A stretch of DNA of 31,507 bases. Source: a virus. The notes beneath the pieces were generated by a model. It was given only the letters and a program-made list of their open reading frames with translations. It had not been told where the DNA came from and searched no databases. Within the stretch, counting starts at the first letter, position 1. Every line of letters starts with the position of its first letter. The stretch covers positions 1 to 31,507 of the IMG/VR virus record IMGVR_UViG_3300046660_000162. One strand, given 5' to 3'. Below, piece by piece: positions 3,599 to 28,179 of the stretch. The position numbers were made by a program, and so were the translations under genes.

Positions 3599-3629
3599 TG
3601 CTGGATGGTCGCATCCGTCCTTTTCTAAC

Positions 3630-3672
3630 TCAAGCAAGTGATGCTTGACAGTACTAAAGTGATGCTTTAGTA
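3630..3672. promoter_or_regulatory. Right operators between cI and cro
   Basis: Two inverted repeats lie side by side. TCAAGCA and TGCTTGA (3630-3636 and 3642-3648) are separated by five bases. TACTAAAG and CTTTAGTA (3652-3659 and 3665-3672) are also separated by five bases. Both contain the 11-mer AAGTGATGCTT. The first overlaps the -35 box and the second fills the spacer and -10 box of the rightward promoter, as expected for repressor or Cro binding sites. Confidence 0.75.
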
Positions 3673-3673
3673 T
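3645..3673 (+). promoter_or_regulatory. PR-type promoter for the rightward early operon
   Basis: TTGACA (3645-3650), a 17-base spacer and TAGTAT (3668-3673) make a strong sigma-70-type promoter. The expected transcription start, about seven bases after the -10 box, falls at or next to the ATG at 3681, so the first gene would be translated from a leaderless message. The promoter is covered by both right operators. Confidence 0.8.
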
Positions 3674-3680
3674 CTGCTCC

Positions 3681-3899
3681 ATGGAAGCCCTTCTACGCGC
3701 TATCGAACTTATCGGCTCGCAGGCTGAGTTGGCCCGCCGCCTTGGGGTACGTCCACAGCTTATCAGCCAATGGACGCAGGGTAAGCGGCCACTGCCGCCG
3801 ATTCGTGCTGCGCAAATCGAGGAACTGACGGAAGGCCAGGTCACACGCCTGCAACTCCTTCCGGATTTCCCGTGGGTCACGCCCCGCAATCCCGATTGA
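3681..3899 (+). CDS. Cro-like helix-turn-helix regulator
   Basis: The 72-residue protein is essentially one DNA-binding domain of the Cro/YdaS type. The helix-turn-helix is at residues about 12-32 (SQAELARRLGVRPQLISQWT), followed by KRPLPPIRAAQIEELT. It sits divergently from the CI-like gene and is the first gene under PR, so it should repress cI and its own promoter during lytic growth. There is no ribosome site before ATG 3681 and the predicted transcript starts about there, which suggests leaderless translation. The gene ends in TGA. Confidence 0.85.
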   Translation: MEALLRAIELIGSQAELARRLGVRPQLISQWTQGKRPLPPIRAAQIEELTEGQVTRLQLLPDFPWVTPRNPD

Positions 3900-4444: not shown

Positions 4445-5188
4445 ATGGCTGGTGATTGGATCAAATTCGAAGTATCAACTCTCGACAAGCAAGAGGTATC
4501 TCTGCTTGCCGACGTGTTGGGAATCGACCATGACGCCGTAATCGGGAAACTGCTCCGCGTGTGGGCGTGGGCTGACCAGAACGTCACCATCGAAAGTAAC
4601 GGTGAAAGTAACGGTGACAGCGTTACCGTAAGCGTTACTACTTCGTTCCTAGACCGTCTCACATTCTGCCCTGGTTTCTCGAAGGCGCTTGAGTCAGTTG
4701 GTTGGCTGGTGATCGGCGAGCGCCAAGTGGTTCTGCCTAATTTCGCTAGGCACAATGGGAAAACCGCGAAGGAACGGGCACTTGCGGCAAAGCGCGCGGC
4801 AAAGTTCAAGGGTAAGAGTAACGATAAAGGTAACGGTAGTAGCGTTACTTCTTCCGTTACTTCTGCGTTACCTAAAGAAGAGAAGAGAGAGATACTAAAA
4901 GAAGGGTCGGAAAAGACCCTCCCCATTTCGTTGCCCGACTGGTTGCCCGCTGAACTATGGGCAGACTGGCACGCTTACCGAAACACTCGGAAAGGTTGGA
5001 CGGCGAAAGCCAAAGAGCTTTCCCTGAAAACCCTTACGGAACTCCACGGCCAGGGTCACAGCCCGAAAACGATCATCGAGCGCTCCATTGAGCGTGGATG
5101 GACGGGCCTGTTCGCTCCCGCCGCTCAGAACGGACAGCAACCTGCCTTTTCAGGGCCTCAAAAGACGCGAAAGGAACTCGGCGCATGA
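4445..5188 (+). CDS. Replication initiation protein, lambda O-like role
   Basis: The protein (247 aa) begins MAGDWIKFEVSTLDKQEVSL, an N-terminal winged-helix type seen in phage replisome organisers. Two Ser/Asn/Val/Thr-rich repeat stretches follow (residues about 51-67 and 125-143), then a C-terminal domain starting around PDWLPAELWADWHAYR, which is common in O/DnaD-like phage replication proteins. It overlaps the DnaB-type helicase start (ATGA), the usual initiator-helicase arrangement. It probably binds the repeat array lying inside its own gene and loads the helicase. The ribosome site before ATG 4445 is weak. Confidence 0.75.
   Translation: MAGDWIKFEVSTLDKQEVSLLADVLGIDHDAVIGKLLRVWAWADQNVTIESNGESNGDSVTVSVTTSFLDRLTFCPGFSKALESVGWLVIGERQVVLPNFARHNGKTAKERALAAKRAAKFKGKSNDKGNGSSVTSSVTSALPKEEKREILKEGSEKTLPISLPDWLPAELWADWHAYRNTRKGWTAKAKELSLKTLTELHGQGHSPKTIIERSIERGWTGLFAPAAQNGQQPAFSGPQKTRKELGA
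4596..4871. repeat. Iteron-like GTAACG array inside the replication gene, candidate origin
   Basis: Nine copies of GTAACG or its reverse complement CGTTAC lie in two similar clusters. The first has starts at 4596 and 4608 (forward) and 4621 and 4633 (reverse). The second has 4818 and 4830 (forward) and 4843, 4855 and 4866 (reverse). Spacing is 11-13 bases and both clusters have forward copies followed by reverse copies. The second cluster is directly followed by an A/G-rich stretch at about 4872-4910. This matches the plan of lambda ori, with iterons plus an easily melted purine-rich tract inside O. Confidence 0.65.
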
Positions 5189-6507
5189 ACGAGACCTTTG
5201 CCCGCGTACCACCGCACTCCATCGACGCCGAGCAGGCCGTGATTGGCGGGCTGATGCTGTCGCCCGAGAAAATCGAGACGGTAGCCGAGCGCTTGACTCA
5301 GGCGGACTTCTACCGTCGCGATCACCAGCTGATCTACCGGGCCATGTTGGAACTGTCCGGTCGTGGTCAGCCATGCGATGCCGTGACACTTGGCGACTGG
5401 ATGGACACGAACGGTTTCGCCGACATGATGGGCGGCTCGTCGTACCTCTACGACCTGGCGAACAACACCCCGTCGTCGGCCAACCTTGCCGCCTATTCTC
5501 AGATCGTCCGCGAGAAGGCCGTACGGCGCTCCCTGATCGATCTGGCTACATCCCTATCAACCGATGCCTACGCGTCCGACAGCGAGGCTCCTGCGCTGCT
5601 TGACGGGGCTATCGCAGGGCTGATGTCGATGCAGAAGGTCGAGTCACGCGCAGAGTTCACTTTGCGGCAGGCGATGACCCTTGCGTATCAGGAAGCCGAG
5701 CGCGCGAAGGCGCTCGGCGGCAAGGTGCCGGGAATCTCTACTGGACTCGCTCGCCTGGACAAGGTTTTGGGCGGATGGCACGACTCGGATCTGGTCATCG
5801 TCGGTGCACGTCCTGCGATGGGCAAGACGGCCCTCCTACTCAACTTCGCCCTGTCCGCTAGCGTGCCGTGCGGAATCATTTCCGCCGAACAGCCCGCCCA
5901 GCAGGTCGCGGCCCGCGTGATGTCCATCGACTCCCACGTTCCCGCCGAGCGGATGCGTAACGGAAGCTTCGACACGGACGACCTCCGGAAGTTGGACTTG
6001 TCCGTGGGGCGTCTGATCGAGCGTACCTGCCTGATCTACGACCGGAGCGCCCCGTCCATCGCCGACGTGTCCCGTATGGCCCGTAAGTGGAAGCAGCAGA
6101 ACGGCATCAAGATCCTTCTTGTCGATTACGTCCAGCGGATCGAAGCCAGTAACGCCGACAAGCGCACGCCGAAGCATGAGCGGGTGGGCGAGGTGGTCCG
6201 TGGCCTGAAGAACCTCGCCCGCGATCTGGACATCCCGGTCGTGGCCTTGGCTCAGGTTGGCCGTCACGTCGATACCCGCGAGGACAAGCAGCCCGGCATG
6301 GGCGACATCTCCGACTCGTCCGAAATCGAGAAAGAGGCGGACCAGATCATCACCCTCTATCGCCCCGGCGTACATGACGACTCGGCGGATCAGGCGGAAG
6401 CCATCCTTAGCGTCGAGAAGAACCGCCACGGCCCAACCGGCGTCGTCCGTGCCGCATGGCTGGCCGAGACGATGCGATTCACGGACATGGCCTATGACAA
6501 CCGATGA
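5185..6507 (+). CDS. dnaB: Replicative DNA helicase, DnaB type
   Basis: From ATG 5185 (overlapping the previous stop) the protein has 440 residues, the normal DnaB length. The N-terminal domain starts RVPPHSIDAEQAVIGGLM, the family's usual opening. The RecA-like domain has the Walker A motif GARPAMGKT (about residues 213-221), the SAEQP segment carrying the catalytic Glu, the Walker B stretch ILLVDYVQRI and the later DSSEIEKEAD region. It unwinds DNA at the phage fork, probably loaded by the upstream initiator. No in-frame TAG is present and the stop is TGA. Confidence 0.95.
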   Translation: MNETFARVPPHSIDAEQAVIGGLMLSPEKIETVAERLTQADFYRRDHQLIYRAMLELSGRGQPCDAVTLGDWMDTNGFADMMGGSSYLYDLANNTPSSANLAAYSQIVREKAVRRSLIDLATSLSTDAYASDSEAPALLDGAIAGLMSMQKVESRAEFTLRQAMTLAYQEAERAKALGGKVPGISTGLARLDKVLGGWHDSDLVIVGARPAMGKTALLLNFALSASVPCGIISAEQPAQQVAARVMSIDSHVPAERMRNGSFDTDDLRKLDLSVGRLIERTCLIYDRSAPSIADVSRMARKWKQQNGIKILLVDYVQRIEASNADKRTPKHERVGEVVRGLKNLARDLDIPVVALAQVGRHVDTREDKQPGMGDISDSSEIEKEADQIITLYRPGVHDDSADQAEAILSVEKNRHGPTGVVRAAWLAETMRFTDMAYDNR

Positions 6508-12618: not shown

Positions 12619-12828
12619 ATGATGCTTTGGCAAGATCACATCGCGGATGCAGCAAAAGTGGCCCCAACAGTAGCGTACGTCGGCACAACCGTAGCGGGGG
12701 TGCAATGGGGAACCTTGGCATAGATCCTCGCCTGCGTGTATTCCGGCTTGATGATCGTCGATTTCCTTTGGCGCAAGTGGGCAAGGCCCCTGCTGGAGCG
12801 TAAGAGTGTCATTTCGCCCAAGTCCTAA
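12619..12828 (+). CDS. Holin-like membrane protein with one in-frame TAG
   Basis: ATG 12619 has an ideal AGGAGG ribosome site. Read with TAG (12721-12723, codon 35) as Gln, the frame gives 69 residues ending in TAA. There are two hydrophobic stretches (about residues 15-36 and 36-53), then a basic C-terminus (RKWARPLLERK), as in small class II holins. It is directly followed by, and overlaps, the endolysin gene. It would make holes in the inner membrane to time lysis. With TAG as stop only a 34-residue fragment lacking the second span could be made. Confidence 0.8.
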
Positions 12829-13282
12829 AGTAGTCGGTGGCTTCCTGGCGGCAGTTGTCGCCGCAGCCGCAGCCTTTACCCAACCTTGGGAAGGCACGGT
12901 CTACGAAGGCTACTCGGACGTTGTAGGGGTTACGACCGCCTGCACTGGCCATACGGGGCCCGAGGTGGTGCTGGGGAGGCACTACGACAACTACCAGTGC
13001 AACCTCTGGTTCCAACATGATATTGCGATTGCAGCTTAGGGCGTCCTGTCCTGCGTACCAGCGGAACGGCTGACGGTTAACCAGGCTGCGAGCTTTACAA
13101 GCACCACGTTCAACATCGGAGTTACCGCCTTCTGCGGATCCACGATGGCCCGCAAGGCGAACGAAGGTGATCGAGCCGGATCCTGTAAGGCCCTTCTTAT
13201 GTGGGTTTATGCAGGCGGCCGGAAGATTCAGGGATTGGTCAACAGGCGCAATGCCGAGTACCGGCTGTGTATGACGCCATGA
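12806..13282 (+). CDS. Endolysin, GH24 lysozyme with signal-anchor-like N-terminus, one in-frame TAG
   Basis: Start GTG 12806 lies inside the holin gene. Residues about 9-24 (VVGGFLAAVVAAAAAF) are a weakly hydrophobic signal-anchor segment. The lysozyme catalytic triad pattern follows: Glu in PWEGTVYEGY, Asp in YSDVVGV and Thr in TTACTGHTG. The C-terminal half (RLTVNQAASFTSTTFNIG, then ARKANEGDRAGSC and WVYAGGRKIQGLVNRR) is typical of P21-type lysozymes. TAG 13037-13039 (codon 78) falls between these halves, so the standard code would yield an inactive fragment. With Gln the product has 158 residues and ends in TGA, the family length. Confidence 0.9.
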
Positions 13283-14203: not shown

Positions 14204-14393
14204 CCCGAGAGATTGGCTAAACGAACGATTGTCTTGGGCCTACATCCAGGCCAGTGGCAAGGCCACCCACACGAACACATGCAGCACGAGCGTGGCACCG
14301 GCTAGACAGCCCGGCCCCTGTGACTGCGAGGCAGAAGACCGGGCAGAGAGTAATCGGAAATGGTTCGACCTTGGGCCTGGAGCTTCGCAATGA
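14196..14393 (+). CDS. Small hypothetical protein (65 aa)
   Basis: ATG 14196 overlaps the end of the preceding small gene, and the TGA overlaps the ATG of the spanin gene. It begins MIDPRDWLNERLSWAYIQAS and has three cysteines in the middle part (HTNTCSTS and GPCDCEAED), perhaps a metal site. Similar small proteins lie next to spanins in some phages, but I cannot name a function. Confidence 0.55.
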   Translation: MIDPRDWLNERLSWAYIQASGKATHTNTCSTSVAPARQPGPCDCEAEDRAESNRKWFDLGPGASQ

Positions 14394-14647
14394 GATACGT
14401 CTACATCGCCCTAGGCGTCGTCCTCCTGTGGAGCGCCAGTCTGCTATGGGCACATCACGAGGGATCGACCAGCGAGCGACAGGCGCAGGCTCAGAAGACG
14501 GAAAAGGTCGTAGCGAAGAACCACAAGAAGCGAAAGAAGGTTGAGGAAACCGTAGATGCGCTACCACCCGCCCCGACCATCCCTGTGCATGACGTTCCTC
14601 CTGATTCTGCCGCTGGCAGGTTGCGCGACAACTGGAGCCGGGATTAA
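14390..14647 (+). CDS. i-spanin (Rz-like)
   Basis: The 85-residue protein has an N-terminal membrane anchor (about residues 3-20, YVYIALGVVLLWSASLLW), a charged periplasmic helix rich in Lys, Gln and Glu, and a C-terminal segment ending DSAAGRLRDNWSRD that is typical of Rz-type subunits. An o-spanin lipoprotein is encoded in another frame starting inside it. Together the pair bridges the periplasm and fuses inner and outer membranes after the endolysin has cut the wall. Confidence 0.85.
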   Translation: MRYVYIALGVVLLWSASLLWAHHEGSTSERQAQAQKTEKVVAKNHKKRKKVEETVDALPPAPTIPVHDVPPDSAAGRLRDNWSRD

Positions 14648-14789
14648 CGGCTGCGACTGGGCGAAACCGATCTACGTGTCACAAGACGACGTGCTGACTG
14701 ACGGCACGGCCAAACAAATCCTGACCCATGACGAGACTGGCAAAGCCATCTGCGGATGGGGCAAATACAAACCCGAGGAATCCGAATGA
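14556..14789 (+). CDS. o-spanin lipoprotein (Rz1-like), overlapping Rz out of frame
   Basis: The frame starts at ATG 14556 (or ATG 14589, directly before the hydrophobic core) within the Rz gene. The signal MTFLLILPLAGC has the lipobox LAGC, so the mature protein starts at Cys and is anchored in the outer membrane. The 77-residue length with an extended C-terminal part (ending KYKPEESE) is longer than classical Rz1. The overlapping out-of-frame arrangement is the hallmark of lambdoid spanin pairs. Confidence 0.85.
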   Translation: MRYHPPRPSLCMTFLLILPLAGCATTGAGINGCDWAKPIYVSQDDVLTDGTAKQILTHDETGKAICGWGKYKPEESE

Positions 14790-15013: not shown

Positions 15014-15183
15014 TGACCGGCATTCCCGCATGGATTCATAACGACAGCGTCGTCATCACCCGGACCATGAACGGCTTCGCCATCGTCGAGACTCCCACGT
15101 CTCCGGTGTCTCAGTCCGTGAGCTTCGAGACCTGGGACGCGCTGGCCTATTACCTCAACGCGAATTTCTCCCCGAGCGTATGA
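15013..15183 (+). CDS. Small hypothetical protein (56 aa)
   Basis: It starts at ATG 15013, overlapping the previous stop, and ends with TGA overlapping the next ATG. The sequence MTGIPAWIHNDSVVITRTMN, with a later FETWDALAYYL segment, looks like a compact small domain. The function is unknown. It lies between the lysis genes and the tRNA. Confidence 0.55.
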   Translation: MTGIPAWIHNDSVVITRTMNGFAIVETPTSPVSQSVSFETWDALAYYLNANFSPSV

Positions 15184-15269
15184 GCGGCAAGGGCGATGAC
15201 CGTCGTCCTCTGAGCGTGGATGAGCAGACGTTCTCGGATAACTGGGATCGAGTGTTTGCGGCTAAGTAG
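15180..15269 (+). CDS. Small MSGKGD-type protein ending at TAG, with possible read-through across the tRNA gene
   Basis: ATG 15180 opens the frame MSGKGDDRRPLSVDEQTFS and reaches TAG at 15267-15269 after 29 residues. The opening is typical of very small phage proteins. If TAG is read as Gln the same frame has no stop through the whole tRNA gene. It passes a second TAG at 15504-15506 and ends only at TGA 15591-15593, giving 137 residues. The part encoded by the tRNA is unlikely to be a real domain. I therefore give the short form, but which TAG reading applies is open. Confidence 0.45.
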   Translation: MSGKGDDRRPLSVDEQTFSDNWDRVFAAK

Positions 15270-15330
15270 GATTACTACGCAAGTGTCCGAGAGAAGAACT
15301 ACGTGGATAGCTTGCGGCTGGAAGGTTTAG

Positions 15331-15405
15331 TGGGGCGTAGCTCAACGGTAGAGCCAGAATCTCTAAAGTTCTCGGATGTCCGTTCGAATCGGACCGCCCC
15401 CGCCA
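15331..15405 (+). tRNA. Amber-suppressor tRNA, anticodon CUA, tRNA-Gln-like, CCA encoded
   Basis: A full cloverleaf of 75 bases can be drawn. The acceptor is TGGGGCG with CGCCCCC; positions 2-7 pair and the first pair is a T-C mismatch. The D stem is GCTC/GAGC. The anticodon stem AGAAT/GTTCT encloses the loop CTCTAAA, giving anticodon CTA. The variable region has five bases, the T arm is GTCCG/CGGAC with loop TTCGAAT, then G73 and an encoded CCA. U1 with a weak first pair, G2-C71, G3-C70, A37 and G73 are known glutamine identity elements in bacteria. The tRNA should read UAG, probably charged with Gln by host GlnRS. Confidence 0.95.
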
Positions 15406-15420
15406 CACACGAGGTAACAC

Positions 15421-15522
15421 ATGGAAATGCTAGTGAACCGTCACACGAACCTGTGGCGCAAGCCGCTGCCTCGTCCAGCACGGACCGGGAAGACGGCGAA
15501 GGATAGGGCAAGATCTCGTTGA
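15421..15522 (+). CDS. Small basic hypothetical protein (33 aa)
   Basis: ATG 15421, with a GAGG ribosome site, opens a frame beginning MEMLVNRHTNLWRKPLPRPA and rich in Arg and Lys; it ends in TGA at 15520-15522. It starts 15 bases after the tRNA. The basic composition might suit nucleic-acid binding, but the short length leaves the call uncertain. Confidence 0.4.
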   Translation: MEMLVNRHTNLWRKPLPRPARTGKTAKDRARSR

Positions 15523-15593
15523 TCTACTGGGATCCGGTGAGCAAGCGTGAGGTTAGCCACGATTGGTGGCCCAACATTGAGGAACCGAAATGA
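15519..15593 (+). CDS. Small hypothetical protein, TTG start (24 aa)
   Basis: TTG 15519 overlaps the stop of the previous small gene (TTGA), and the TGA stop overlaps the next ATG. The peptide begins MIYWDPVSKREVSHDWWPNI. The tight overlap at both ends and the well-composed sequence favour translation. It is also the end of the long read-through frame starting at 15180, so it could be just the tail of that frame. Confidence 0.4.
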   Translation: MIYWDPVSKREVSHDWWPNIEEPK

Positions 15594-15790
15594 GTCAGCT
15601 TCCATCGCACCACCAGATCAATGACCGCGTTTCTCTCAAGTTCGGCGAAGGCTATGTTGGTGCTCAAGTCGTCGGCGTTTTCTTCACCGAGGCCAAGGTT
15701 CTGTACACCGTCGTGACCGATCAGGATATCCAACTCGAAAACGTCGACTCTGCCGTAGTGTGCGATCCGGCCAGTGGCGAGACGGACTGA
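15590..15790 (+). CDS. Small conserved phage protein of unknown function (66 aa)
   Basis: The ATG at 15590 overlaps the preceding TGA. The protein has a hydrophilic N-terminus, then INDRVSLKFGEGYVGAQVVG and VFFTEAKVLYTVVTDQDIQ, a small beta-barrel-like (SH3-type) pattern seen in many phage proteins near late genes. The stop is TGA. No enzymatic motif is visible. Confidence 0.65.
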   Translation: MSQLPSHHQINDRVSLKFGEGYVGAQVVGVFFTEAKVLYTVVTDQDIQLENVDSAVVCDPASGETD

Positions 15791-15912: not shown

Positions 15913-16203
15913 ATGGCTTTCGAGAAGGGACAATCAGGCAATCCAGGCGGACGTCCTAAGCTTCTTGCTGAGGTGTAGGACGCTGCCCGCGAGCACACGC
16001 TGACTGCATTGGATGTCCTGATCTCCATTGCCACGGACGCCGAGAAGCCGCCTGCGGCTCGTGTGAAGGCCGCTGAGACGTTACTTGATCGTGGATGGGG
16101 TAAGCCCCGTCAGTCGGTGGAGGTATCGGGTGACGCGGACCAGCCACTGGTTACTCGTGTCGAACTCATTTCCATGGTGACGAGTGGCAACGGCCCAGGT
16201 TGA
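15913..16203 (+). CDS. Probable small terminase subunit, one in-frame TAG
   Basis: The 96-residue product begins MAFEKGQSGNPGGRPKLLAE; the GQSGNPGGRPK motif is typical of DUF5681-type proteins found at the small-terminase position. A helical part (REHTLTALDVLISIATDAEK) and a segment ending in TLLDRGWGKPRQSVE follow. TAG at 15976-15978 (codon 22) read as Gln joins the motif to the rest. It directly precedes and overlaps the large terminase gene, so it most likely recognises phage DNA for packaging. It ends in TGA. Confidence 0.75.
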
Positions 16204-17494
16204 ACTACCCCAGAAGCTGATCCCGATCTTTTAGGGTGAGGCTGACGTGCGTGGTAGCCATGGTGGCCGAGGCTCGGGCAAGACCCGAAGCTTTGCGGTG
16301 ATGACCGCCGTACGTGGCTATATGTTCGCCAGGTCGGGCGTAAGCGGGATTATCCTGTGCGCCCGCCAGTTCATGAACTCGCTGTCTGACTCGTCCATGG
16401 AGGAAGTGAAGCGGGCCATCGAGGACAACCCTTGGCTTAACGACTTCTACGACATCAGCGAGAAGTAGATTAAGTCGAAAGATGGGCGGATCAGCTACGC
16501 CTTCGCTGGCCTGGATCGCAACATCGGCAGCGTGAAGTCTAAGGGGCGTGTGCTGCTGTGCTGGGTGGACGAGGCTGAGCCGGTCACTGACCAGGCACTG
16601 TCTACCCTCATGCCGACGCTGCGAGAGGAAGGCGACGACTGGAATGCCGAGCTTTGGGTGACGTGGAACCGGGCCCGCAAGACCGCAGCCGTTGAGCGGT
16701 ATGCCAATGCCATCGACCCTCGAATTAAGGTCGTGCAACTGAACTGGCGGGATAACCCCAAGTTCCCCGCCAAGCTGGAACGAGACCGTCAGCGTGACAT
16801 GGTGGACAGGCCGGACCAGTACGACCACATCTGGGAGGGCGACTTCCTTGGTGTCGTAGAGGGCGCCTACTTCGCCACAGGGCTGACGAGGGCAAAGGCT
16901 GAGGGTCGTATAGGTAAACTTGCAGCCGACCCGCTGATGACGATACGCGCCTATTGGGACATCGGCGGGACAGGTGCCAAGGCTGATGCCTGCGCTATCT
17001 GGATCGTCCAGTTCATCGGCAAAGAGATTCGCGTCCTCGATTACTACGAGGCGGTAGGCCAGGAGTTGTCGGTACATATCGACTGGCTCCGGTCGAAGAA
17101 GTACGAGAAGGCCGAGTGTGTGCTGCCCCACGACGGGGCGAACAACGATAAGGTCTTCCGGGTTAGCTACCAGAGCGCCCTACGCGATGCCGGATTCAAT
17201 GTCAGGGTCATCCCGAACATGGGCGCTGGTGCTGCTATGACCCGAGTGGAGAACGTCCGCCGCATCCTGCCGTCCTGCTGGTTCAACGAGGACAGCACCG
17301 AAGGTGGCCGCGATGCCCTCGGCTGGTATCACGAGAAGCGCGACGAGAACCGGGGCATTGGCCTTGGCCCTGCTCACGACTGGGCAAGTCACGGTGCCGA
17401 TGCCTTTGGCCTGATGGCCGTTGACCACGCTACCCACGTATCGTCCTCCGAATGGAGTTCGAAACTCACCTACAAAAAAATGGGCAACGCTTGA
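16184..17494 (+). CDS. Terminase large subunit, two in-frame TAGs
   Basis: With GTG 16184 as start and two TAGs read as Gln (16232-16234, codon 17; 16466-16468, codon 95), the product is 436 residues, a normal TerL length. Walker A is GGRGSGKT (about residues 27-34), Walker B is VLLCWVDEAE, and the C-terminal nuclease domain has aspartates in RAYWDIGGTGAKADACAI and in HDWASHGADAFG. It pumps DNA into the capsid and cuts it. Under the standard code the Walker A part would be severed from the Walker B and nuclease parts. It ends in TGA, overlapping the portal start. Confidence 0.95.
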
Positions 17495-19743
17495 AAACTG
17501 ACCCGTACGACGAAATCCTAGGTGACACGGACGACGAGGCCACTGGCGAAATGTCGGACGGCGAGCTGTGCGGCATCATCGACCGTGAGCGGACCAACGG
17601 CATCGGCTTCAATGACCAGATGTAGTCTGACCGCGAGCGTGCGATGTCCTACTACCAGGGCGAGGCCGTGGGGGAACTTGCCCCGCCTGAGGTAGAGGGG
17701 CGTAGCCGGGTCGTGTCCAAGGAGCTGATGGACGTCGTTGAGTGGACGATGCCTGGACTCATGGAAATGTTCGCCTCCACCGATGACGTGGTGGCCTTTG
17801 AGCCATCCGGTCCAGCCGAGGAAAAGAACTGCAAGGACGCCACGCGATATTGCGGCTACGTCCTGCACCGTAAGAACCCCGGGTTCACCATTCTGCACGA
17901 CGCCATCAAGTCGGCCCTGATCACCCGCATGGGCGTGGTCAAGGCGTACTGTGACCGCTCGTGGGATGTGCGCGAGTAGAAGCTGACCAACCAGTCGGAC
18001 ATGGACCTTGAGGCGATCAAGGGTGACGACTCGATGGAAGTCGTCACAGTGGCCGCTATCCAGCCCGTGGAGGGAGTCCCACCTGTCGAGGTAGCACCGG
18101 GCCAGTTCCAACCCGCGCCGGTCACCTATGACGTTACAGTGCGTGTCAAGGAGCGCAAGGACAAGTTCGTCGTGTGTGGCGTGCCACCCGAGGAAATCAC
18201 CATCTCCAAGGACTCGCGGGACATCGAGAAGGTCCGCTACATCGGCCACGACGTGGAGCGCACCAAGTCCGACCTGTTGAGCCTTGGCTACCCCAAGGAC
18301 AAGGTCGAGGCCCTGTACGACGACAAGAGGGCCAATGCATCGTCGGAAGCCTCGGTACGCGGTGACTACGATGGCGTGAACAACTACGACGACGATCCGG
18401 CTGACAAGAGCCAGAAGAAGGTCACCCTCACGGAAGCTTACCTTCTGGTCGATTACGACAAGGACGGTATTGCCGAGTACCGCCGCATCGTCAAGGCCGG
18501 CATGGTCGTCTTCGAAAACGAGATTGTCTAGGACCACCCGTTCGCCCTGTTCACCCCGATCCTGATGCCATACAAGCTGGTGGGTATGTCGTTCTACGAC
18601 CTCGTAGAAGACCTCCAGCGGATCATGACGGCGATCAACCGGCAGATGTTGGACAACTTCTATCTGTCCAATACGCCGCGCACCGAGATTGTCGAAGGCC
18701 AGGTGAATCTGGACGACTTCCTCAACCCGGTTCCGGGTGGTGCCGTCCGCGTCAAAGCTCCGAACATGATGCGTGAGATTCAGGTGCCGTCCATTGCCGC
18801 CCAGGCGATGCAGGGCATCGAATACTTCAAGAACGTCCGCGATGGCCGTACAGGCGTCAAGGAATTCAGCCAGGGACTCGTCGGCAACGAACTGAGCAAG
18901 TCGCAGATCGGTTCCGAGGGCGTCAGTCAGCTCATGGACCAGGCCGCGACCCGCCAGAAGCTCCTGGCCCGCGTGTTCGCTGAGACCGGCATCAAGCGCT
19001 TGTATCGCCTCATCCTCAAGATGGTCACGCAGTATCAGGACCGCGAGGAACAGGTGAAGGTCAACGGTGCCTGGATGGCCGTCGATCCACGCGAATGGGC
19101 CAACAACTACGATATGGTCGTGTCGGTGGGTATCGGCACGCAGTCCAAGCAGGTACAGGTGGCGCAGGCCATGCAGCTGTTGCAGATCCAGCAGGCAGCG
19201 GCACAGGCGTCCCCGGGGCTGGTCACGCCGACCAACGCGTTCAACACCCTGGAAGACCTGACAAGCACGCTGGGCAAATCGGATGTCAGCCGGTACTTCA
19301 CCGCCCCCGATCCGAATGCACCGACCGCACAGGCTCCCGACCCGAACGCGCACAAGATGGCCGAGATTCAGGCGAATGCGCAGATCAAGCAGGCCGAAAT
19401 GCAGCAGCAGGGCCAGTTGCAGTAGCAGAAGCAGCAGGGCGACATTGCTGTGGAGCAGATGAAGCAGCAGTTCCAGGCCCAGCAGGCCCAGCAGGAGACT
19501 CAGCTTGAGGCCGAGCGCAACACTCAGCAGATGCAGAACGAGATGACCCTTGCCCAGTTCAAGGCTGAGAAGGACGCCGAGCTGGCCAAATTCAAGGCAG
19601 AACTGGATGCCAACACAGAGATTCTTAAGGCCCGCATTCAGGCTGAGGCACAGATCGCCGCAGCGGAACTTCGTGCGCAGGCTGATGAGAGGCTTGCTAC
19701 CCAGCAAATCCAGTATCAGCAGTCACACGAGGGCCAGGTATGA
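17491..19743 (+). CDS. Portal protein, P22-like, four in-frame TAGs
   Basis: The frame begins at TTG 17491, overlapping the terminase stop (TTGA), and reads 750 residues to TGA. Four TAGs (17623, 17977, 18529 and 19423; codons 45, 163, 347 and 645) must be decoded. The sequence has the marks of the P22-like portal family: RSRVVSKELMDVVEWTMPGL near the start, DLVEDLQRIMTAINRQMLDN in the middle and a long Gln/Ala/Glu-rich helical C-terminus. The fourth TAG sits in a Gln tract (GQLQ-TAG-QKQQ), which favours Gln as the inserted residue. The portal ring is the DNA gate of the capsid. Confidence 0.93.
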
Positions 19744-20181: not shown

Positions 20182-21204
20182 ATGAGCCAACCGGAAACGG
20201 AGCTTGCAAACGGGGGCAGCCAACCGGAAACGGAGCACAGCCTTCTCGATATCGCTGGAATGATGGACGAAAGCGAGAAGGACGAGGCCGCCTAGGACGA
20301 CGTACAGGACGAAGCTGGTCAGGATGGCCACGAGGATACGGATACAGACACGGACGACGCCCAGGAAAGCGCTGACGAAGCCACAGACGATGCCGGTAAG
20401 GATGCCGACAAGACCAAGGACGATGACGACACATGGAAGACCAAGAAGGTCAAGGTGAGTGTGCAGGGTGAGGAACATGAAATCACCCTTGAGGAAGCGA
20501 CACACGGCTACATGCGTGAACAGGACTACCGACGCAAGACGCAAGAGGCAGCGGAACTAACCCGAGCGGCGCAGGCTGAACGGGCACAGGTCAAGCAGGA
20601 ACTCGATAACCGAGTCAACTCGCTTAACGTGCTTGGGCAGGCGCTTTATCAGGAGTACGTTGGCGATCAGGCGAAGCTTGCAGGATTGCTTGAGACGGAT
20701 CCGCACGGCTACCTCCGAGTTAAGGAGCAGATGGCACAGCGGCAGAACCTTCTCGGGCAGATTGAGGCCCATCGACAGGCCACGCAGGAGTACGCGATCA
20801 ACGAACAGGCGAAAGCCCGTGTCGAATCGATTCGCCTGGCGGAGGAAACGTTGCTGGAGCGCCTCCCCGAATGGAAGGACCCCGGCAAGCGCAGGGCGGA
20901 ATCGACGGATATCGCCTCACTGCTTGTTGATGCTGGGTACTCCCATGACGAGCTTAAAGAACTGATCGACCCCCGTGCCCTGATCGTCGCCCGCAAGGCG
21001 GCTCTCTGGGACAAGGCGCAAGCCGCCAAGGCAAAAGCCACGGAAGTGACGAAAACCCCGGCAACCCCGGCCAAACCCGTCACCCCTGGCACGGCTGGCA
21101 AGCCCGAAAAATCCGCTAGCGCAGTCAAGGCCGCACAGAACTACCAGCGCAATCCGAATTCACTGGATGCCCTGGCCGGACTGGCCCTTGAGCGCGGCAT
21201 CTAA
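20182..21204 (+). CDS. Scaffolding protein, one in-frame TAG
   Basis: ATG 20182 follows a GAGGATC ribosome site. The 340-residue product has a very acidic Asp/Glu-rich N-terminal third, then KVSVQGEEHEITLEEATHGY, long Ala/Gln/Glu-rich helices, and a Lys/Pro/Thr-rich tail before NPNSLDALAGLALERGI. This composition, and the place just before the capsid gene, is typical of scaffolds of podovirus-like phages. TAG at 20293-20295 (codon 38) lies in the acidic part. The QPETE segment is duplicated near the N-terminus. It guides capsid assembly and is then lost. Confidence 0.85.
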
Positions 21205-21221: not shown

Positions 21222-22220
21222 ATGCCCGCAAATACCCTCATCACCCCGAGCGTCATCCGCGTTGCGGAAGATGTCGAGGACAAGATCTACAACTTCCGCC
21301 CGTCCGACGCTCCGCTGACCTCGGCCATCGACCGTATCAAGGTCGAAAACGTGTTCCACGAGTGGACTGCCGACACGTATCGCGCCCCGAATGCCGGTAA
21401 TGCCGCCATCGAAGGTGCTGACGCGTCCTACGCCGCGTAGACCCAGCCGGGTCAGTACAACAACCGCTGCCAGATCGTTCAGGACACGATGTCGGTGTCC
21501 AACACGGCTGAAGCAGTCCGCAAGTACGGTCGCAGCTCCGAAATCGCCCGCCTGAAGACCAAGAAGATGGTCGAACTCAAGCGTGATATCGAGGCCGCTG
21601 CCATCGGTAACGGTGCTTCGGTGACCGGTACGTCCGGCGTCGCGGGCCAGATGCGCGGCCTGTACGGCTTCATTGCCACGAACAACGACTTTGGCGTCGG
21701 TGGCGTGGCTCCCAACCCGCAGACGAATACGGCCCCGACCCTCGGCACGCTGCGTCCGTTCGTGGAAGCCTCGGCCAAGGCCGTCATCCTCGGTGCGTAC
21801 AGCAACGGTGGCGACGCTGCGGTGTTCCTCGTCTCGCCGGCTCATAAGGCGAAGTTCTCCACCTTCGGCTCGGCGGTGCAGCGTACCAACGAAGTGGCCC
21901 TCCAGCCGGGTACGAGTAAGTCGCTCAGCCCGAACGACGTTATTGTCCAGACCGCGTTCACGTTCTACGGTCACGACTTCGGCGTCAGCAAGGTTGTTCC
22001 GGACCGCGTGATGGGTGCTGGCGGTGCCGGCCTCCTGAACACGGCCTATCTGGTGGACTTCGACAAGCTGGCTCTGGGTCAGCTGCGTCCGTTCGAATCC
22101 GAGCAGCTGGCGACGACCGGCGATGCCAAGAACTGGCAGATCCGCACGGAAGTCACGCTCGTGGTTCGCCAGGAATCGACCCTGGGTGCGGTGCGCGACC
22201 TGACGGCGACCGGTAACTAA
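21222..22220 (+). CDS. Major capsid protein, SU10/DUF5309 type, one in-frame TAG
   Basis: The 332-residue protein begins MPANTLITPSVIRVAEDVED and has FRPSDAPLTSAIDRIKVENV followed by HEWTADTYRAP, the opening of the SU10-type capsid family (DUF5309). Later come the conserved ELKRDIEAAAI and VFLVSPAHKAKFSTF regions and a C-terminal VRQESTLGAVRDLTAT. TAG at 21438-21440 (codon 73) follows YAA and precedes TQPGQYNNRCQI. Without decoding, no capsid could form. The gene ends in TAA. Confidence 0.95.
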
Positions 22221-22278: not shown

Positions 22279-22578
22279 ATGGAACGCCACCTCGTAGCCG
22301 TCGATAACAGGACCATGATTGACTATGCCGTTGTCGAGACGAGCAAGCTCAAGCAGCTGGCCGATGCGTGCCGTGAGCAGCGTGAGGCGGGATAGACGGG
22401 CGACGAGGACATCAAGGTGCTGGCCCATGTGGACGCATGGATCTGCGAAGACTGGTGCAACCGGAAGGGCGTGCTGTGGCGTGACTTCATGCGTGACCCG
22501 CAGGTTCAGGCCGATTTCCTCAATGACCCGGCAAATGCGCCGTTTCGTGTCTATCAGGGCCGGATTGGTGCTAAATGA
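22279..22578 (+). CDS. Hypothetical structural-region protein (99 aa), one in-frame TAG
   Basis: ATG 22279 follows a GGAGAG ribosome site. The frame MERHLVAVDNRTMIDYAVVE runs through TAG 22393-22395 (codon 39, after REAG) and ends in TGA overlapping the next start. It is charged and helical with a Trp/Cys-rich middle part (WICEDWCNRKGV). No family is recognised; it lies between capsid and adaptor genes. Confidence 0.7.
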
Positions 22579-23177
22579 TTAACGACTACAGCAGCCTTCA
22601 GTAGGCCGTCACCAACTGGCTTGCCCGTGCCGACCTGGCTCCGCGCATCCCCGATTTCATCATGCTGGCCGAGACGCGGATCAATCGCGACCTCCGCACG
22701 GCACCGCAACAGACTGCACTGAGCGGGACGACGGTCAATTCGGCGATCACCCTGCCGTCTGACTTCCGCCAGATGCAGGCATTCATCATCAACTACGGTG
22801 GGTATGAGCGTGAGCTTGATCCCGTTCCGCCGTAGCAGTCGCTTAACGGCGACAACCGTGTGTGCCCGACCGGGTACTACATCACCAACAACACGCTGAA
22901 TGTCATCGGCAGCGATGACTACAGCTATCGCATGGTGTATTTCGCTGGCGTCCCTAGCCTGACGAGCGACGCGCCGCAGAACTGGCTTATTCAGGACGAT
23001 CCGAGCCTATACCTCTACGCGACGCTCTTGGAGGCTTCTGTGTATATGCGTGACGACTCTCGCACGCAGCTGTTTGGGACGGGCTACCAGACGGCTCTGG
23101 CTGGCTTGCAGAAGCAGGACGACTATGTCCGCTACTCGCCGTCGCCCCGGCAGCGCACGGATATCCAGACGCCGTGA
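22575..23177 (+). CDS. Head-tail adaptor protein, SU10-adaptor-like, two in-frame TAGs
   Basis: The 200-residue product starts MINDYSSLQ-TAG-AVTNW and continues ARIN-type helix AETRINRDLRTAP, then LPSDFRQMQAFIINYGG, a common pattern of podovirus adaptor proteins that bind under the portal. TAGs are at 22602-22604 (codon 10) and 22833-22835 (codon 87, PVPP-TAG-QSL). Relatives carry Gln or a similar polar residue in these segments. It ends in TGA, overlapping the next GTG start. Confidence 0.8.
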
Positions 23178-24631
23178 GTGCGACCCAGCTAGTAGGCTTC
23201 AGTCCGGACCTCGACCCGACGACTCCTGGCGTCATCGTGGACTGCGACAACATTATCCCGACGACCAAGGGGTTCTCATCGGGTAACAGCCTCGTGGACG
23301 CTGGTCTGGCCGCGCTGGACAGTGCGTGCAAGGGCGCCTACGTCGGTACGTTGCTGGACGGCACCAAGCGCATCGTGGCTGGCACCAACGCCAAGCTGTG
23401 GGATATCTCTGGCGGCGTGTGGACGGACCGTAGTCAGGCAGGCGGATACACGGGACTCGCTCCGTGGCGATTCACCATGTTCGGCAGCAACATCCTGGCG
23501 GCTAACCGAGCCCAGAAGATCCAGTAGGCCGCACCCGGTGCCAGCTTCGCCGATATCCCCACGGCTCCGGCGGCGTCGATCATCTGCTCAGCGGCTAACT
23601 TCGTTCTTGCCTTCAACTTCTCCGACCTGAGCGGCAGCTTCGGCGACCAGCCTGACGGTTGGTGGTGCTCCAACCTGTTCGACCAGACCGCATGGACGCC
23701 CGCCATCGGCTCTCAGGCGGCCAATGCGCGCCTCGTGGACACTCCTGGCAAGATCACTGCGGCCCGCGAGTTCGGCAATGATGTGATCGCGTACAAGGAG
23801 AAATCCATGTATCGCGGGCAGTACATCGGGCCTCCGCTGATCTGGTCGTGGCAGCGCATTCCCGGTGAGATTGGATGCTCCGGCCAAGAGGCCGTGGTGG
23901 TCATCGGCGCATCCCACTTCTTCGTGGGACCTTCCGACTTCTTCGTCTATGACGGCACGGTGCCCCGGTCGATTGGCGCTCCGGTTCGCGAGTGGTTCTT
24001 CACCAACCTCAACGGATCGCAGCGGGGCAACATCAAGGGCGGTGCTGACCTGACCCGCGACCTCGTCTACTGGTACTTCCCGAGCACAGCCAGTACGGGC
24101 ATCTGCGATATCTGTGTGGTCTACAATATCCGCACGAATCAGTGGGGCAAGTTCGCCCGCCAGATCGAGGCAGTCATCCAGTATTCGTCCGGCAACGTCA
24201 CCTACGACGGTCTGGGCACGCTCTACAGTACCTACGACAACCTGCCCAACATCGCCTACGATTCGTCGTTCTGGATTGCCGACAATACGGTGCCCGGCAT
24301 CATCTCGACGGACCACAAGCTCTACAGCCTGACGGGCGTGCCGGGCGCCTCGTACCTGATTACGGGTGATCTGGGCGACGAGACAAACTACGCGCTACTT
24401 CGACGCATGACGCCGCGCTACCGGACCTCGCCCACAACGCAGTCCACGGGTACGAACTTCTACCGTTACGACCTGGGGGCCGCTCCGGTACAGGATGCCA
24501 CCATCGCCGCCTCTAACGGCCGTTTCGACTTCCATCGTGACGCCCGATGGCACCGTGTCCGTATGGACTGGACAGGAACGATGATCATTAACGGCTACAC
24601 GCCCGATATTCTGGCGACGACACCCGAATGA
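23174..24631 (+). CDS. Tail hub/stopper-type protein (485 aa), one in-frame TAG
   Basis: The frame opens at GTG 23174 (MSATQLVGFSPDLDPTTPGV) and reads through TAG 23525-23527 (codon 118, AQKIQ-TAG-AAPG) to TGA 24631. The middle shows propeller-like repeats with Gly/Trp/Tyr motifs (KEKSMYRGQYIGPPLIWSWQ, VVYNIRTNQWGKFARQIEAV). This kind of protein follows the adaptor in many podovirus-like phages and forms the tail tube or stopper. The exact family name is uncertain. Confidence 0.75.
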
Positions 24632-24933
24632 AGCTCCAGACAAACCCGTCACTGCCGCAGGATCTGCAACAGCAGGTATTGCGACTCACCGACCTCCTTC
24701 AACAGGCCGCCACATAGGTCAACCTGCTCACCGAGGGTCGTGCCGCTGCGGTATATAACGCCCGGGCGGCGATACCGAACCAGGGGCAAAATGCAGTGGG
24801 TGACTTCGTCCTGAACTCGGCCCCGGCTGAGCTGGGAACGGCTGGGTCGAAGTACCTCGTCCATGGATGGCGTTGCACCGTCGCCGGCACTCCCGGTACG
24901 TGGCTCCCCGTCCGCACACTGACAGGCAACTAA
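24628..24933 (+). CDS. Small structural protein (101 aa), one in-frame TAG
   Basis: ATG 24628 overlaps the previous stop. A Gln/Leu-rich helix (MKLQTNPSLPQDLQQQVLRL, with TAG at 24715-24717, codon 30, inside it) precedes a compact C-terminal part GDFVLNSAPAELGTAGSKYL and a HGWRCTVAGTPGTWLPVR motif that is common in small phage virion proteins. It ends in TAA. The location between tail and ejection genes supports a virion role. Confidence 0.7.
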
Positions 24934-24936
24934 TAC

Positions 24937-25374
24937 ATGTTTCCAGCTATCTCAGGCGTTACTGGCGACGGTCAAATGGTCTACGGGCTTGTGACAGACG
25001 TCAGGCAAATATGGCCCATCGTCAAGGGCGGCGTTGAGCAGATCATCTAGACCAACAACGAGCCATTTCTGGTCGAAGACGTCTATACCTCAATCATCGA
25101 GGGCAGGGCGGCGATGTACATCGTCCACACCAAGGAAGGAAAGTATGCGGGCTTCTCCGTTCTGACTCCGCATCAGTTTCCGTACACAAAGTAGCCAGAC
25201 CTGAATCTCTGGCTAGGCTACACGACCGAGCCGACGACGGGTCATTACGGCATAGAGATATCCAAAGTCGTGCAGCAGTCCGCAGGATTCCAGCGGCTCG
25301 TGTTTGCGACCCCCTAGGACGGATGGCCCGAGCGCTACGCCTAGAAGATACACACTTGGTACGAGGTTAATTGA
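24937..25374 (+). CDS. GNAT-like/internal virion-type protein with four in-frame TAGs (145 aa)
   Basis: The frame ATG 24937 to TGA 25374 is interrupted by TAG at 25048, 25192, 25315 and 25342 (codons 38, 86, 127 and 136), so no piece longer than about 47 residues is open under the standard code. Read with Gln it gives a coherent protein: VRQIWPIVKGGVEQI, a beta stretch RAAMYIVHTKEGKYAGFSVL, LWLGYTT and a C-terminal KIHTWYEVN. This resembles small acyltransferase-fold (GNAT-like) phage proteins near ejection genes. The activity is unproven. It has one of the highest TAG densities in the window. Confidence 0.75.
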
Positions 25375-25375
25375 G

Positions 25376-26365
25376 ATGGGTGGTAGCAGCGCACCGAAGA
25401 ACACGACAACGACCACGCAGACGGAGCTTCCGGCGTGGCTCACCCAGGACTATACGTAGTTCATCAATCAGACTCAGGCGCAGAACGCACTGCCCTACCA
25501 GTCCTACAATGGACAATTGAACGCGGGCCTATCAACCGGGCAGAATGATGCCTATCAGATCGCCGGGGCTGGTGCTCGTGGCAATCAGCAGGGCCAGATC
25601 GCCCAGACGAATGCCCTTAACGGCATCATGCAGGGAAGTCAGAACGTAAACGCCCAGACTAGCCCGTATCTAGGCCAGAACTCGTATCTTGACGGGGTCG
25701 TCAACGACTCCAACCGCGATATCACCAACTCGTATCTTCAGGGTGCAGGTGTCCAACTTCCGACGCAGTTCGCCCAAGGCGGTGCGTTCGGTGGTTCGGC
25801 CATGCAGCAGGCAGCTACGGCCAGCCAGCAATAGCTCGCCCAGAGCCTCGCAACGAACACCGACAACCTGCGGTATCAGGACTACAACGATCAGGCCAAT
25901 CGCTGGCAGCAGGGCTTCCAGAACCAACTGGCGGCATCGCAGAACAACACCCAGAACATCCTAGGCGCATCGAATTCGATCAACGGCGCGAACGCGTTGC
26001 AGGCCCAGTACAACGGTCAGCTTGCCGGGCTCGGACAGGTACAGCAGGACTACAGCCAGGGCAACATCAATCAGGCATACAACGACTGGTATCAGCAGAA
26101 CTACGGCTACGGTCAGCAGCAGCTTGCGAACTACGGCAACGCGCTCAACTCGATTTCTGGCAACTTCACCAGTTCCGCAACCTCCGGACTGAATCCCGCC
26201 TACAAGCCACGCACTGCGGCTGGCGGCGTGGCTTCTGGTGCGGCTGGTGCCGCTGCCGGTAGCGCCATCGGCGGCATGATTGCTGGCGGCGAAGCTGGTT
26301 CAACTGCCGGCCCGTGGGGCGCTGCTATTGGCGCTGCTGCGGGTATTGCTTCCTATTACCTCTAA
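25376..26365 (+). CDS. Gln/Asn-rich ejection or internal virion protein (329 aa), two in-frame TAGs
   Basis: ATG 25376 to TAA 26365, with TAG at 25457-25459 (codon 28) and 25832-25834 (codon 153, in ASQQ-TAG-LAQS). The protein is rich in Gln, Asn, Gly and Ala and ends with a glycine-zipper-like hydrophobic tail (GAAAGSAIGGMIAGGEAG, then AAIGAAAGIASYYL). Such tails are typical of podovirus ejection proteins that enter the host membrane. The second TAG lies in a row of glutamines. Confidence 0.8.
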
Positions 26366-26374
26366 GGGCACACC

Positions 26375-26776
26375 ATGGCATTCAACTTTCTATCCGGTCA
26401 GGTCCCCCAGCAGCAGGGCATGGGAAGCTACAACCCGCAGGCCATGCAGTCATATGCCCCGGCATGGAATACCGGCCAGCCGTAGGGTATGGACTACTCG
26501 CAAGTCCTCGGCGGCGGTCAAGCGTCACCCGCGACCCAGGGCCTCGACTTCTCAAAAATCGGCCAGTGGGCAACGTAGATGGCTGGTCAGCAGGGACAAA
26601 ACGGGCTAGCTGCGGCATCTTCGATGGGGCCGACCCAGCCGACCCAGGGAACCATGCCGACCATGAGTCCGCTACAGGCTCGTATGGCTCAGCGTGCGCT
26701 CGGTCAGGTGCAGCAGGGGGCATCGGGTTACATCGGCGGTAACACTCGCTCGGGTCTTCTCGGGAGCATGAGATAA
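26375..26776 (+). CDS. Small Gln-rich virion protein (133 aa), two in-frame TAGs
   Basis: ATG 26375 to TAA, with TAG at 26483-26485 (codon 37, TGQP-TAG-GMDY) and 26576-26578 (codon 68, QWAT-TAG-MAGQQ). The protein is rich in Gln, Gly, Met and Pro and is probably disordered at the N-terminus; the C-terminus is helical (LQARMAQRALGQVQQGA). Its place among ejection-protein genes suggests a virion component. The TAA overlaps the next ATG. Confidence 0.75.
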
Positions 26777-28179
26777 TGGCATGGCAGGACATTTTTGCAG
26801 GTCAGCAGCCCGGCCTTAGCGAGGACGACAGGAAGTAGCTCGCGAATAGCGGTCTTCTACAGGCTGGCTTGTAGGCGCTATCGGCTAACTCTCAGCCTGG
26901 CGTAACGCCCATTCAGGCACTTTCCGGTGGTCTCCTCGGCGGCATCCAGTCAGCCCAGCAGGGCGGTCAGCAGCTTGTGCAGGATCGCTACAAGCAGCAG
27001 CAAATGCAGTTCCAGCAGTCCTAGATGGCGGATCAGTAGGCGCAGCAGCAGCGTCGCCAGCAGATCCAAGACCTCGCCCTGAAGTTCGCTAAGCCTGATG
27101 GAACGTTCGATATGCCGGGTTATCAGACTGCGCTCATGCAGTTGGATCCCGAGGCCGCTCTTGACCTGCACAAGAACGAGCTTCAGACGCAGGCCCAACA
27201 GTTGGCTATCCAGAAGGGCCAGCGTGACCTTAGTGTCGCTCCGACTCGTGAACTCGACGTTGGAAACAACAAGGTCACGCAGGAGTTGCAACCGGACGGT
27301 ACGTGGAAGCAGCTTGCATCGGCCGGTCGATTTGCGCCTCAGCAGTCGGCATCGTCCGCACTGGCCCAGCAGGTCCAGTTGCTCAAACAGTACGGTGCGA
27401 CGGATGACGACATCAAGCAGAAGCTTGGCATCGGTGGTGGTCTGACGAATACTCCGACCTACAACCCGAATGGTCCGACGGGTGATGACTTCCTGAAGAC
27501 ACTCCCGCCAAACGATCAGCCTATCGTCAAGGCTGTTCTTGACGGTCGCTACCCGATCCCCACCGGCAAGGCGGCAACGTCTCCGGAGTGGCAACGTGTC
27601 GTGCAGTTGGCGACGCAGGCCGATCCGACGTTCGACGCTGGTAACTACCCGGCCCGTGCGGCGGCTCGCAAGGACTTCACTTCCGGCCCAACGTCCAAGA
27701 CGATCACCGGCCTGAACACGCTGGCTCACCACATCAACACGCTGAATTCGTCGATTGACGGTCTGGATAACGGGAAATATCCAAGGATCAACGCGATTGG
27801 TAATGCGTTCCAGAGTGGTACGGGTGACCCGCGCGTCAACAAGTTCCAGGTTGCGGCTAATGCGGTGGCTGATGAAGCGGCCAAGGTGTTCGCGGGATCT
27901 GGCTCGGCACTGGCTGACCGCGAGAAGCTGGCGAGCATGTTCGATCCTAGTATGTCGCCGGCCCAGTTGAAGGCGGCAACGGCTCAGCTTTCACAGTTGG
28001 TCGAAGGCAAGCTCGGCGGACTCTAGAACCAGCTTGACCAGGGTATGGGTCTCGGCTCACGAAATATCCAGGTTGTCAGCCCCGAGGCTCGGCAGTTGTT
28101 CGACTCTCAGTCTGGCGGCACCCAGTAGCCTAACGCCCAACCAGCAAATGGCGGCTGGTCCGTAAAGAAGGTGAACTAA
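26776..28179 (+). CDS. Ejection-type internal virion protein (467 aa), six in-frame TAGs
   Basis: The frame ATG 26776 to TAA 28179 is interrupted by TAG at 26836, 26872, 27022, 27037, 28024 and 28126 (codons 21, 33, 83, 88, 417 and 451). Several are next to CAG-rich runs, for example FQQS-TAG-MADQ-TAG-AQQQ. The N-terminal region is Gln-rich and helical; the middle contains PNDQPIVKAVLDGRYPIPTG and ALADREKLASMFDPSMSPAQ, a pattern frequent in podovirus ejection/internal proteins. Four TAGs in the first 90 codons would block almost any product until suppression works. Confidence 0.85.

Follow-up and report, generated by a model that had tools for sequence, protein, structure and literature searches.

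Genomic context and suppressor tRNA gene

The stretch of DNA analysed here (hereafter the window) covers the 31,507 nucleotides of the IMG/VR virus record IMGVR_UViG_3300046660_000162. Its early part carries a gene for a CI-like repressor (Peptidase S24; 2879..3889, minus strand), whose terminal stop codon is TAG, and an early gene encoding a DnaB-like helicase (5098..6507, plus strand) without any in-frame TAG. A block of TAG-bearing genes, all on the plus strand, opens with the gene located at 12755..13279 (TAG at 13037). It continues with two overlapping Rz-like spanin genes involved in lysis (14360..14789), a small late ORF (15180..15593) in which a tRNA gene is embedded in frame, and a gene at 15590..15790, whose ATG overlaps the TGA of the tRNA-bearing ORF (ATGA) and which has a homologue in record L182. 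The packaging and head genes are located downstream: a terminase small subunit-like gene (15913..16203; one in-frame TAG), the terminase large subunit (16184..17494; TAG at 16232 and 16466), the portal (17452..19743; four in-frame TAG), the scaffolding protein (20182..21204; one) and the major head protein (21222..22220; one). Further structural, ejection and tail-fibre genes occupy positions 22279..31456, where the homology-supported plus-strand genes contain in-frame TAG and have TGA or TAA as their terminal stop. A tail-fibre-like protein encoded at 30413-31456, with four in-frame TAG, bears a SDRSKKKNV motif close to its C-terminal end; presumably, this end resembles that of an intramolecular chaperone.

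Only one tRNA was called by ARAGORN in the window, on the plus strand at 15331..15405 (75 nt), with the anticodon CTA at 15363-15365. A previous sequence-only reading of this DNA had described a complete cloverleaf with a CTA anticodon and an encoded CCA, and three approaches agree with this description: ARAGORN recovers the gene, Rfam concurs with a match to the tRNA family RF00005 at 15331-15402 (53.2 bits, E-value of 6e-9, for a gathering score of 29), and the minimum-energy fold is the cloverleaf, in which position 1 is the only one of the acceptor stem that fails to pair. The folding energy alone is unremarkable (z of -1.03). The acceptor stem consists of U1·C72 (unpaired), G2-C71, G3-C70, G4-C69, G5-C68, C6-G67 and G7-C66, the 3' end of G73 followed by the encoded CCA, and the anticodon loop of C32 U33 C34 U35 A36 A37 A38. 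The elements that had been listed by the same reading (unpaired U1, G2-C71, G3-C70, A37 and G73) are thus all found in the sequence, and the tRNA does lie between the lysis and packaging genes as it had stated, flanked by the spanin-like genes (14360-14789) and the terminase (16184-17494). Its location within the open reading frame 15180-15593 had escaped that reading. Copies of this tRNA, with no or few changes, are present in other contigs. No match to a ribozyme family was found in the window.

The window tRNA meets the identity set of the Escherichia coli glutaminyl-tRNA synthetase (GlnRS), i.e. U35, an open 1-72, G2-C71, G3-C70, A37 and G73. As in any tRNA reading UAG, position 36 is an A and not the G of this set. 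A tRNA-Pyl identity was rejected: the tRNA-Pyl fold has a 6-bp anticodon stem, one base between the acceptor and D stems and a reduced D-loop, whereas the window tRNA has a 5-bp anticodon stem, two bases (U8 A9) and an ordinary D arm. The “Pyl” given in the ARAGORN output is merely a label for the anticodon CTA.

Recoded relatives and their hosts

Scans of IMG/VR yielded more than 20 recoded relatives. All of them contain in-frame TAG, and those where the tRNA region is covered usually have a CUA tRNA. In addition, a scan of GTDB identified two prophages in bacterial contigs, from Luteibacter sp. Sphag1AF and Dyella sp. SG609, both hosts belonging to the Rhodanobacteraceae (Gammaproteobacteria). 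A wider search for prophages in the Rhodanobacteraceae gave nothing beyond these two cases. In the Luteibacter and Dyella prophages, the suppressors (71 nt, reduced D arm; L209 2238-2308 and L210 1895-1965) were missed by ARAGORN with default parameters and found at a relaxed threshold. Surveys relying on such tools may therefore undercount suppressors. A further divergent tRNA, a tRNA-Gly(UCC), was also observed in the region around the Luteibacter prophage (L257, G006:C2:244547-244617), 4.7 kb from the suppressor. Three other relatives (L179, L180 and L181), whose virion protein is about 75% identical, use the standard code without any TAG and are interspersed among recoded branches of the tree, a pattern suggesting that recoding was gained or lost repeatedly.

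The host of the window itself is inferred from these relatives. The 485-aa virion protein of the window is near that of the Luteibacter prophage in the tree. Its DnaB matches nearly every genome, mostly the host DnaB at about 40%, and the few matches at 55-68% are probably prophage copies; these DnaB matches are only weak host evidence. Both the Luteibacter and the Dyella genomes, i.e. the hosts of relatives, encode a GlnRS above the family cut-off as well as RF1 (host codon use was outside the analysis). The best PDB matches of the Luteibacter GlnRS are bacterial GlnRS, including that of E. coli. Among the family hits of the proteins encoded by the window, no synthetase was seen. The dependence on a host GlnRS, also put forward from the sequence alone, is well supported by the presence of GlnRS in the hosts of two relatives and by determinants that fit the published set, the charging itself being inferred. 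A su+7-like origin from a host tRNA-Trp was considered as well. The anticodon loop of the window tRNA (CUCUAAA) and that of the host tRNA-Trp (CUCCAAA) differ by one change, but this origin is unsupported, as tRNA-Trp is not among the four Luteibacter tRNAs nearest to the body of the window tRNA.

Meaning of UAG in early and late genes

About 40 homology-supported in-frame TAGs were identified in the window, spanning 13.0-31.5 kb. The first ones appear at 13.0 kb, and they continue across the lysis, packaging and structural genes. Ten window proteins were read with TAG as sense, including the terminase, portal, scaffold, major head, virion and tail-fibre proteins. Inside the frames of conserved window proteins, the stops found are 30 TAG, 0 TAA and 0 TGA.

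We then inferred the residue inserted at UAG. For this purpose, the residues that standard-code relatives have at each TAG site were evaluated as if the site encoded each of the 20 amino acids in turn. The substitution frequencies came from these alignments themselves, and each site counted as one effective observation; the test covered the genes resolved by score. In a blind calibration, the codons CAG, CAA, TCG, TGG, TAC, GAG, AAG, TTG and CTG were all correctly recovered. Gln has the highest likelihood at the 40 window TAG sites with standard-code homologues, with a lead of 16 lnL over Asn, 18.5 over Ser, 52 over Tyr and 61 over Trp. Gln was also inferred in all of the 20 relatives with at least 18 scored TAG sites. 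In L195, Gln is ahead of Glu by only 1.6 lnL, and records with less than about 10 TAG sites (L002, L189) leave the residue unsettled. This inference rests on homologues at variable sites, where Ser, Glu, Ala and others occur at single sites. From this comparison of sequences, the window TAGs are best explained as glutamine, in agreement with the recoding that had been anticipated.

In the homology-supported genes of the first 12.7 kb (replication, repressor, recombination), no in-frame TAG was found apart from isolated hits, and these exceptional hits sit in ORFs that are probably spurious (antisense or weak). The Luteibacter prophage displays the same split between early and late genes, and the window and this prophage (L256/L257) share the position of the TAG stop of the repressor. 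Because the repressor ends in TAG, UAG acts as a stop for a lysogeny gene and as sense in the late genes, and expression of the suppressor would extend the window repressor by 18 residues. The restriction of the suppressor to the late phase is an inference from the place of the tRNA in the gene order.

Diversity of the suppressor tRNA bodies

The clade uses at least seven dissimilar suppressor bodies, from 71 to 94 nt. The types comprise that of the window, a 71-nt body with a reduced D arm, 75-nt bodies with other D arms, a 77-nt body, and bodies of 87-90 nt and 94 nt, which have a long variable region. The pairwise identity between types is mostly 52-76%. Nevertheless, an unpaired 1-72, G2-C71 and G73 were found in each of the 17 distinct clade tRNAs first examined, the mismatch at 1-72 being U·C, C·C, A·C or C·A; the 3-70 pair is C-G in L004, L163 and L201. 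In comparison, none of 36 other viral CUA tRNAs with CCA, picked by anticodon-loop pattern, has an unpaired 1-72. The hypothesis that this feature is unique to the clade was however rejected: a search aimed at U1·C72 also retrieved unrelated phages, and the signature is therefore not private to the clade. CUA tRNAs with U1·C72 and G73, on varied bodies, were observed in phages outside the clade (L276, L278, L280, L283, L297, and further L299, L306, L313, L324 and L326). Other unrelated, mostly large phages have a tandem pair of CUA tRNAs (L282, L291, L293, L298, L304, L312, L315 and L318), one with U1·C72 and the other of a different type, some of them of 91-97 nt.

Near-identical neighbours in the protein tree bear different tRNA bodies. 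Between L176 and the window, the flanks share 96% and 90% identity and the tRNA only 57%. This divergence is bounded at the mature ends of the tRNA, i.e. an almost clean exchange of the body alone. As related records are not independent, the counts given for the clade exceed the true number of events. The acceptor ends may derive from a common ancestor, with only the middle exchanged; this is as possible as full convergence, and our data do not separate the two.

An open frame running through the tRNA gene

In the small ORF at 15180..15593, the N-terminal part (N-part) reads MSGKGDDRRPLSVDEQTFSDNWDRVFAAK..., the stretch encoded by the tRNA is VGRSSTVEPESLKFSDVRSNRTAPA, and the C-terminal part (C-part) is ...SLIYWDPVSKREVSHDWWPNIEEPK. 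The consensus of the ORF is MSGKG..RRP.SVDE.TF.DNW.R.F for the N-part and IYI...TG.qV...WWPG for the C-part, where q stands for TAG. In the window, in-frame TAGs are located before the tRNA (15267-15269) and after it (15504-15506).

All three frames were examined, and the frame of the C-part relative to the 3' end of the tRNA is identical in 19 out of 19 distinct contexts. Where both parts are found, a single frame connects them whatever the tRNA length (71, 75, 77 or 94 nt), and these lengths cover all three residues modulo 3. The only out-of-frame N-part belongs to L211, a cassette without C-part. Moreover, the used frame is open in the 18 distinct tRNAs tested, 8 of which are open in one frame only. 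The idea that a splicing-like process takes the tRNA out of the ORF was rejected, since the tRNAs of 71, 77 and 94 nt keep the frame only if they are included. The C-part has a dN/dS of about 0.13 in the used frame, compared with a pN/pS of 1.25 in both other frames. Judging from these substitution patterns, it is therefore very probably translated, and under selection as a protein.

At least one TAG is found after the tRNA in the ORF of 18 out of 21 cassettes (6.2 expected at the average TAG density), at the same site in 11 of them. The window TAG situated about 60 nt before the tRNA is replaced by lysine in the nearest relatives, and this UAG is therefore not a conserved device. The N-part occurs alone in some records, including L034, L183 and L206, in which no TAG was detected, so that the tRNA and the C-part look like an added cassette; the C-part was searched for in standard-code relatives and was not found there. 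The ORF terminates shortly after the tRNA in L210, L211 and L216. In L004 (8946-9117), the 94-nt suppressor has a tRNA-Asn directly downstream, and the nested ORF stays open in its coding frame across both tRNAs.

Discussion

We consider it highly probable that the window represents part of a temperate phage in which UAG has two meanings: a stop in early and lysogeny genes, and glutamine in late genes by means of the phage's own tRNA charged by the host GlnRS. That the in-frame TAGs merely are the decayed genes of a defective prophage can practically be dismissed. Many late genes are indeed broken under the standard code, but TAG alone is affected and TAA or TGA hardly ever, the frames are otherwise intact and conserved (no TAA, TGA or frameshift in the conserved late genes of the window), and dozens of related contigs are alike, with CUA tRNAs of their own. 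It is also very improbable that the suppressor inserts another residue, either Ser in the relatives with a long variable arm or Trp in view of the Trp-like loop of the window tRNA. Class II-like bodies, whose long variable arm is expected to attract SerRS, do occur (L004/G003, L163 and the 87-90 nt forms), and the loop of the host tRNA-Trp is the one-change neighbour mentioned above. A switch from Gln to Ser was expected in L004 and L163 and had to be rejected, as the TAG-site likelihoods gave Gln. Gln is ahead of Ser by 21.6 lnL in L163, 15.5 in G003, 24.7 in L214, 24.6 in L219 and 16.4 in L216, and the lead over Trp in the window argues likewise. Furthermore, in E. coli it is Gln that is charged onto the Trp amber suppressor, and changes at 1-72 and 3-70 turn an amber tRNA-Ser into a Gln acceptor (PMC9976931).

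Another very improbable alternative is a charging by the indirect route (GluRS and GatCAB), the true host of the window being devoid of GlnRS. Judged by the terminase, the closest named phages are those of alphaproteobacteria, a group in which many members rely on the indirect Gln-tRNA route. However, the two close recoded relatives that were located in bacterial genomes are integrated in GlnRS-bearing Gammaproteobacteria. In addition, the amidotransferase depends on U1-A72 (PMC9976931), which is absent from the clade tRNAs. Concerning the nested ORF, the open frame through the tRNA could be accidental and the C-part a separate gene starting at or after the tRNA, with nothing translated across the whole tRNA. 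This explanation is unlikely without being negligible. The records having the N-part without the C-part and those in which the ORF ends soon past the tRNA are compatible with it, as is the NUG start codon formed at the 5' end of the tRNA in several cassettes and, conversely, it does not account for N- and C-parts sharing one frame across tRNA lengths of all three residues modulo 3. Besides, the 94-nt tRNAs (A1 G2 C3) have no start at their 5' end, and the C-part of L163 begins directly after the tRNA.

Under the preferred reading, with two meanings of UAG in one phage, UAG would be read as a stop in the prophage and during early infection. Transcription of the late operon, itself inferred, would then release the embedded suppressor tRNA, the host GlnRS would charge it with glutamine, and the UAG codons of the lysis, packaging and structural genes would from then on be decoded by the ribosomes as glutamine. 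Acceptance by GlnRS may rely on the CUA anticodon (U35), A37, the opened 1-72, G2-C71 and G73, kept across unrelated-looking bodies. Late transcription would supply a single RNA, from which RNase P and 3' processing would excise the tRNA, and uncut RNA would be translated as a message. The UAG after the tRNA would make the end of the nested ORF dependent on the suppressor, and its small protein, perhaps together with the overlapping next gene, would be coupled to working suppression. In the window, the UAG about 60 nt before the tRNA would bar ribosomes from the tRNA until the suppressor accumulates. Without biochemistry, the charging by GlnRS, the translation through the tRNA and any feedback remain inferences, as does the late transcription.

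More tentatively, and with doubt slightly prevailing, the clade may have evolved a switch RNA, which when cut would be a UAG decoder and when uncut would give a small protein ending behind a UAG that only this decoder opens. The bodies would have been swapped at the mature ends, with the frame and the Gln meaning kept, and each body remade to the same minimal GlnRS code. If the tRNA-containing ORF is translated, it would be a new way of coupling the production of a decoder to its use. With many bodies sharing a single meaning, these natural tRNAs offer a direct test of what the glutaminyl-tRNA synthetase must see. They also belong to a temperate group in which UAG appears to change meaning from lysogeny to late infection. 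As prophages of this group reside in sequenced Gammaproteobacteria, how and why phages switch code becomes addressable by induction.

In the papers searched, we came across no account of an open 1-72 common to such tRNAs, of exchanged bodies, or of a coding gene whose frame includes a tRNA. Body exchange and the nested ORF appear to be new, this novelty being provisional. The decoding itself has well-known counterparts. The published GlnRS identity set includes weak 1-72 pairs in Gln-inserting amber suppressors, the E. coli amber tRNA-Trp (su+7) and amber tRNA-fMet accept Gln, and in the case of amber tRNA-Asn, every mutant obtained by in vivo selection had a weakened 1-72 and inserted Gln (PMC9976931). 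As in these E. coli suppressors, Gln insertion in the clade would result from an amber anticodon placed on a foreign body whose 1-72 is suitable and often weakened. By this analogy, the phage tRNAs resemble natural counterparts of the E. coli laboratory suppressors; unlike the laboratory mutants, the clade repeats the solution in nature on at least seven bodies.

Phages using code 15 with a Sup-CTA tRNA have been described among crAss-like phages (Yutin 2021, PMC7886860; Peters 2022, PMC9523058), in phAss-1 (PMC10607447) and in the survey of Cook 2024 (PMC11210395). The late recoding of TAG to Gln by a phage suppressor tRNA was thus already known (PMC7886860, PMC11210395), with support from proteomics in crAss-like phages (PMC9523058). 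Isotype predictions other than Gln have been published for Sup tRNAs in code 15 phages (PMC10879173), consistent with a single meaning carried by varied bodies. Theta ribozymes located beside phage suppressor tRNAs have been proposed to time the code switch (PMC10879173). In the window too, a special arrangement adjoins the phage Sup tRNA, but this neighbour is a protein frame running through the tRNA. Code 15 phages and the window have in common a phage CUA tRNA, TAG read as Gln mostly in late genes, an assumed host synthetase and, for the window presumably, a host with the standard code. In contrast to code 15 phages, the present clade consists of small, temperate and podovirus-like phages, with integrated prophages in Rhodanobacteraceae. 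It has many exchangeable tRNA bodies, including class II-like ones, its tRNA is nested in frame in a coding gene, and its repressor ends in TAG.
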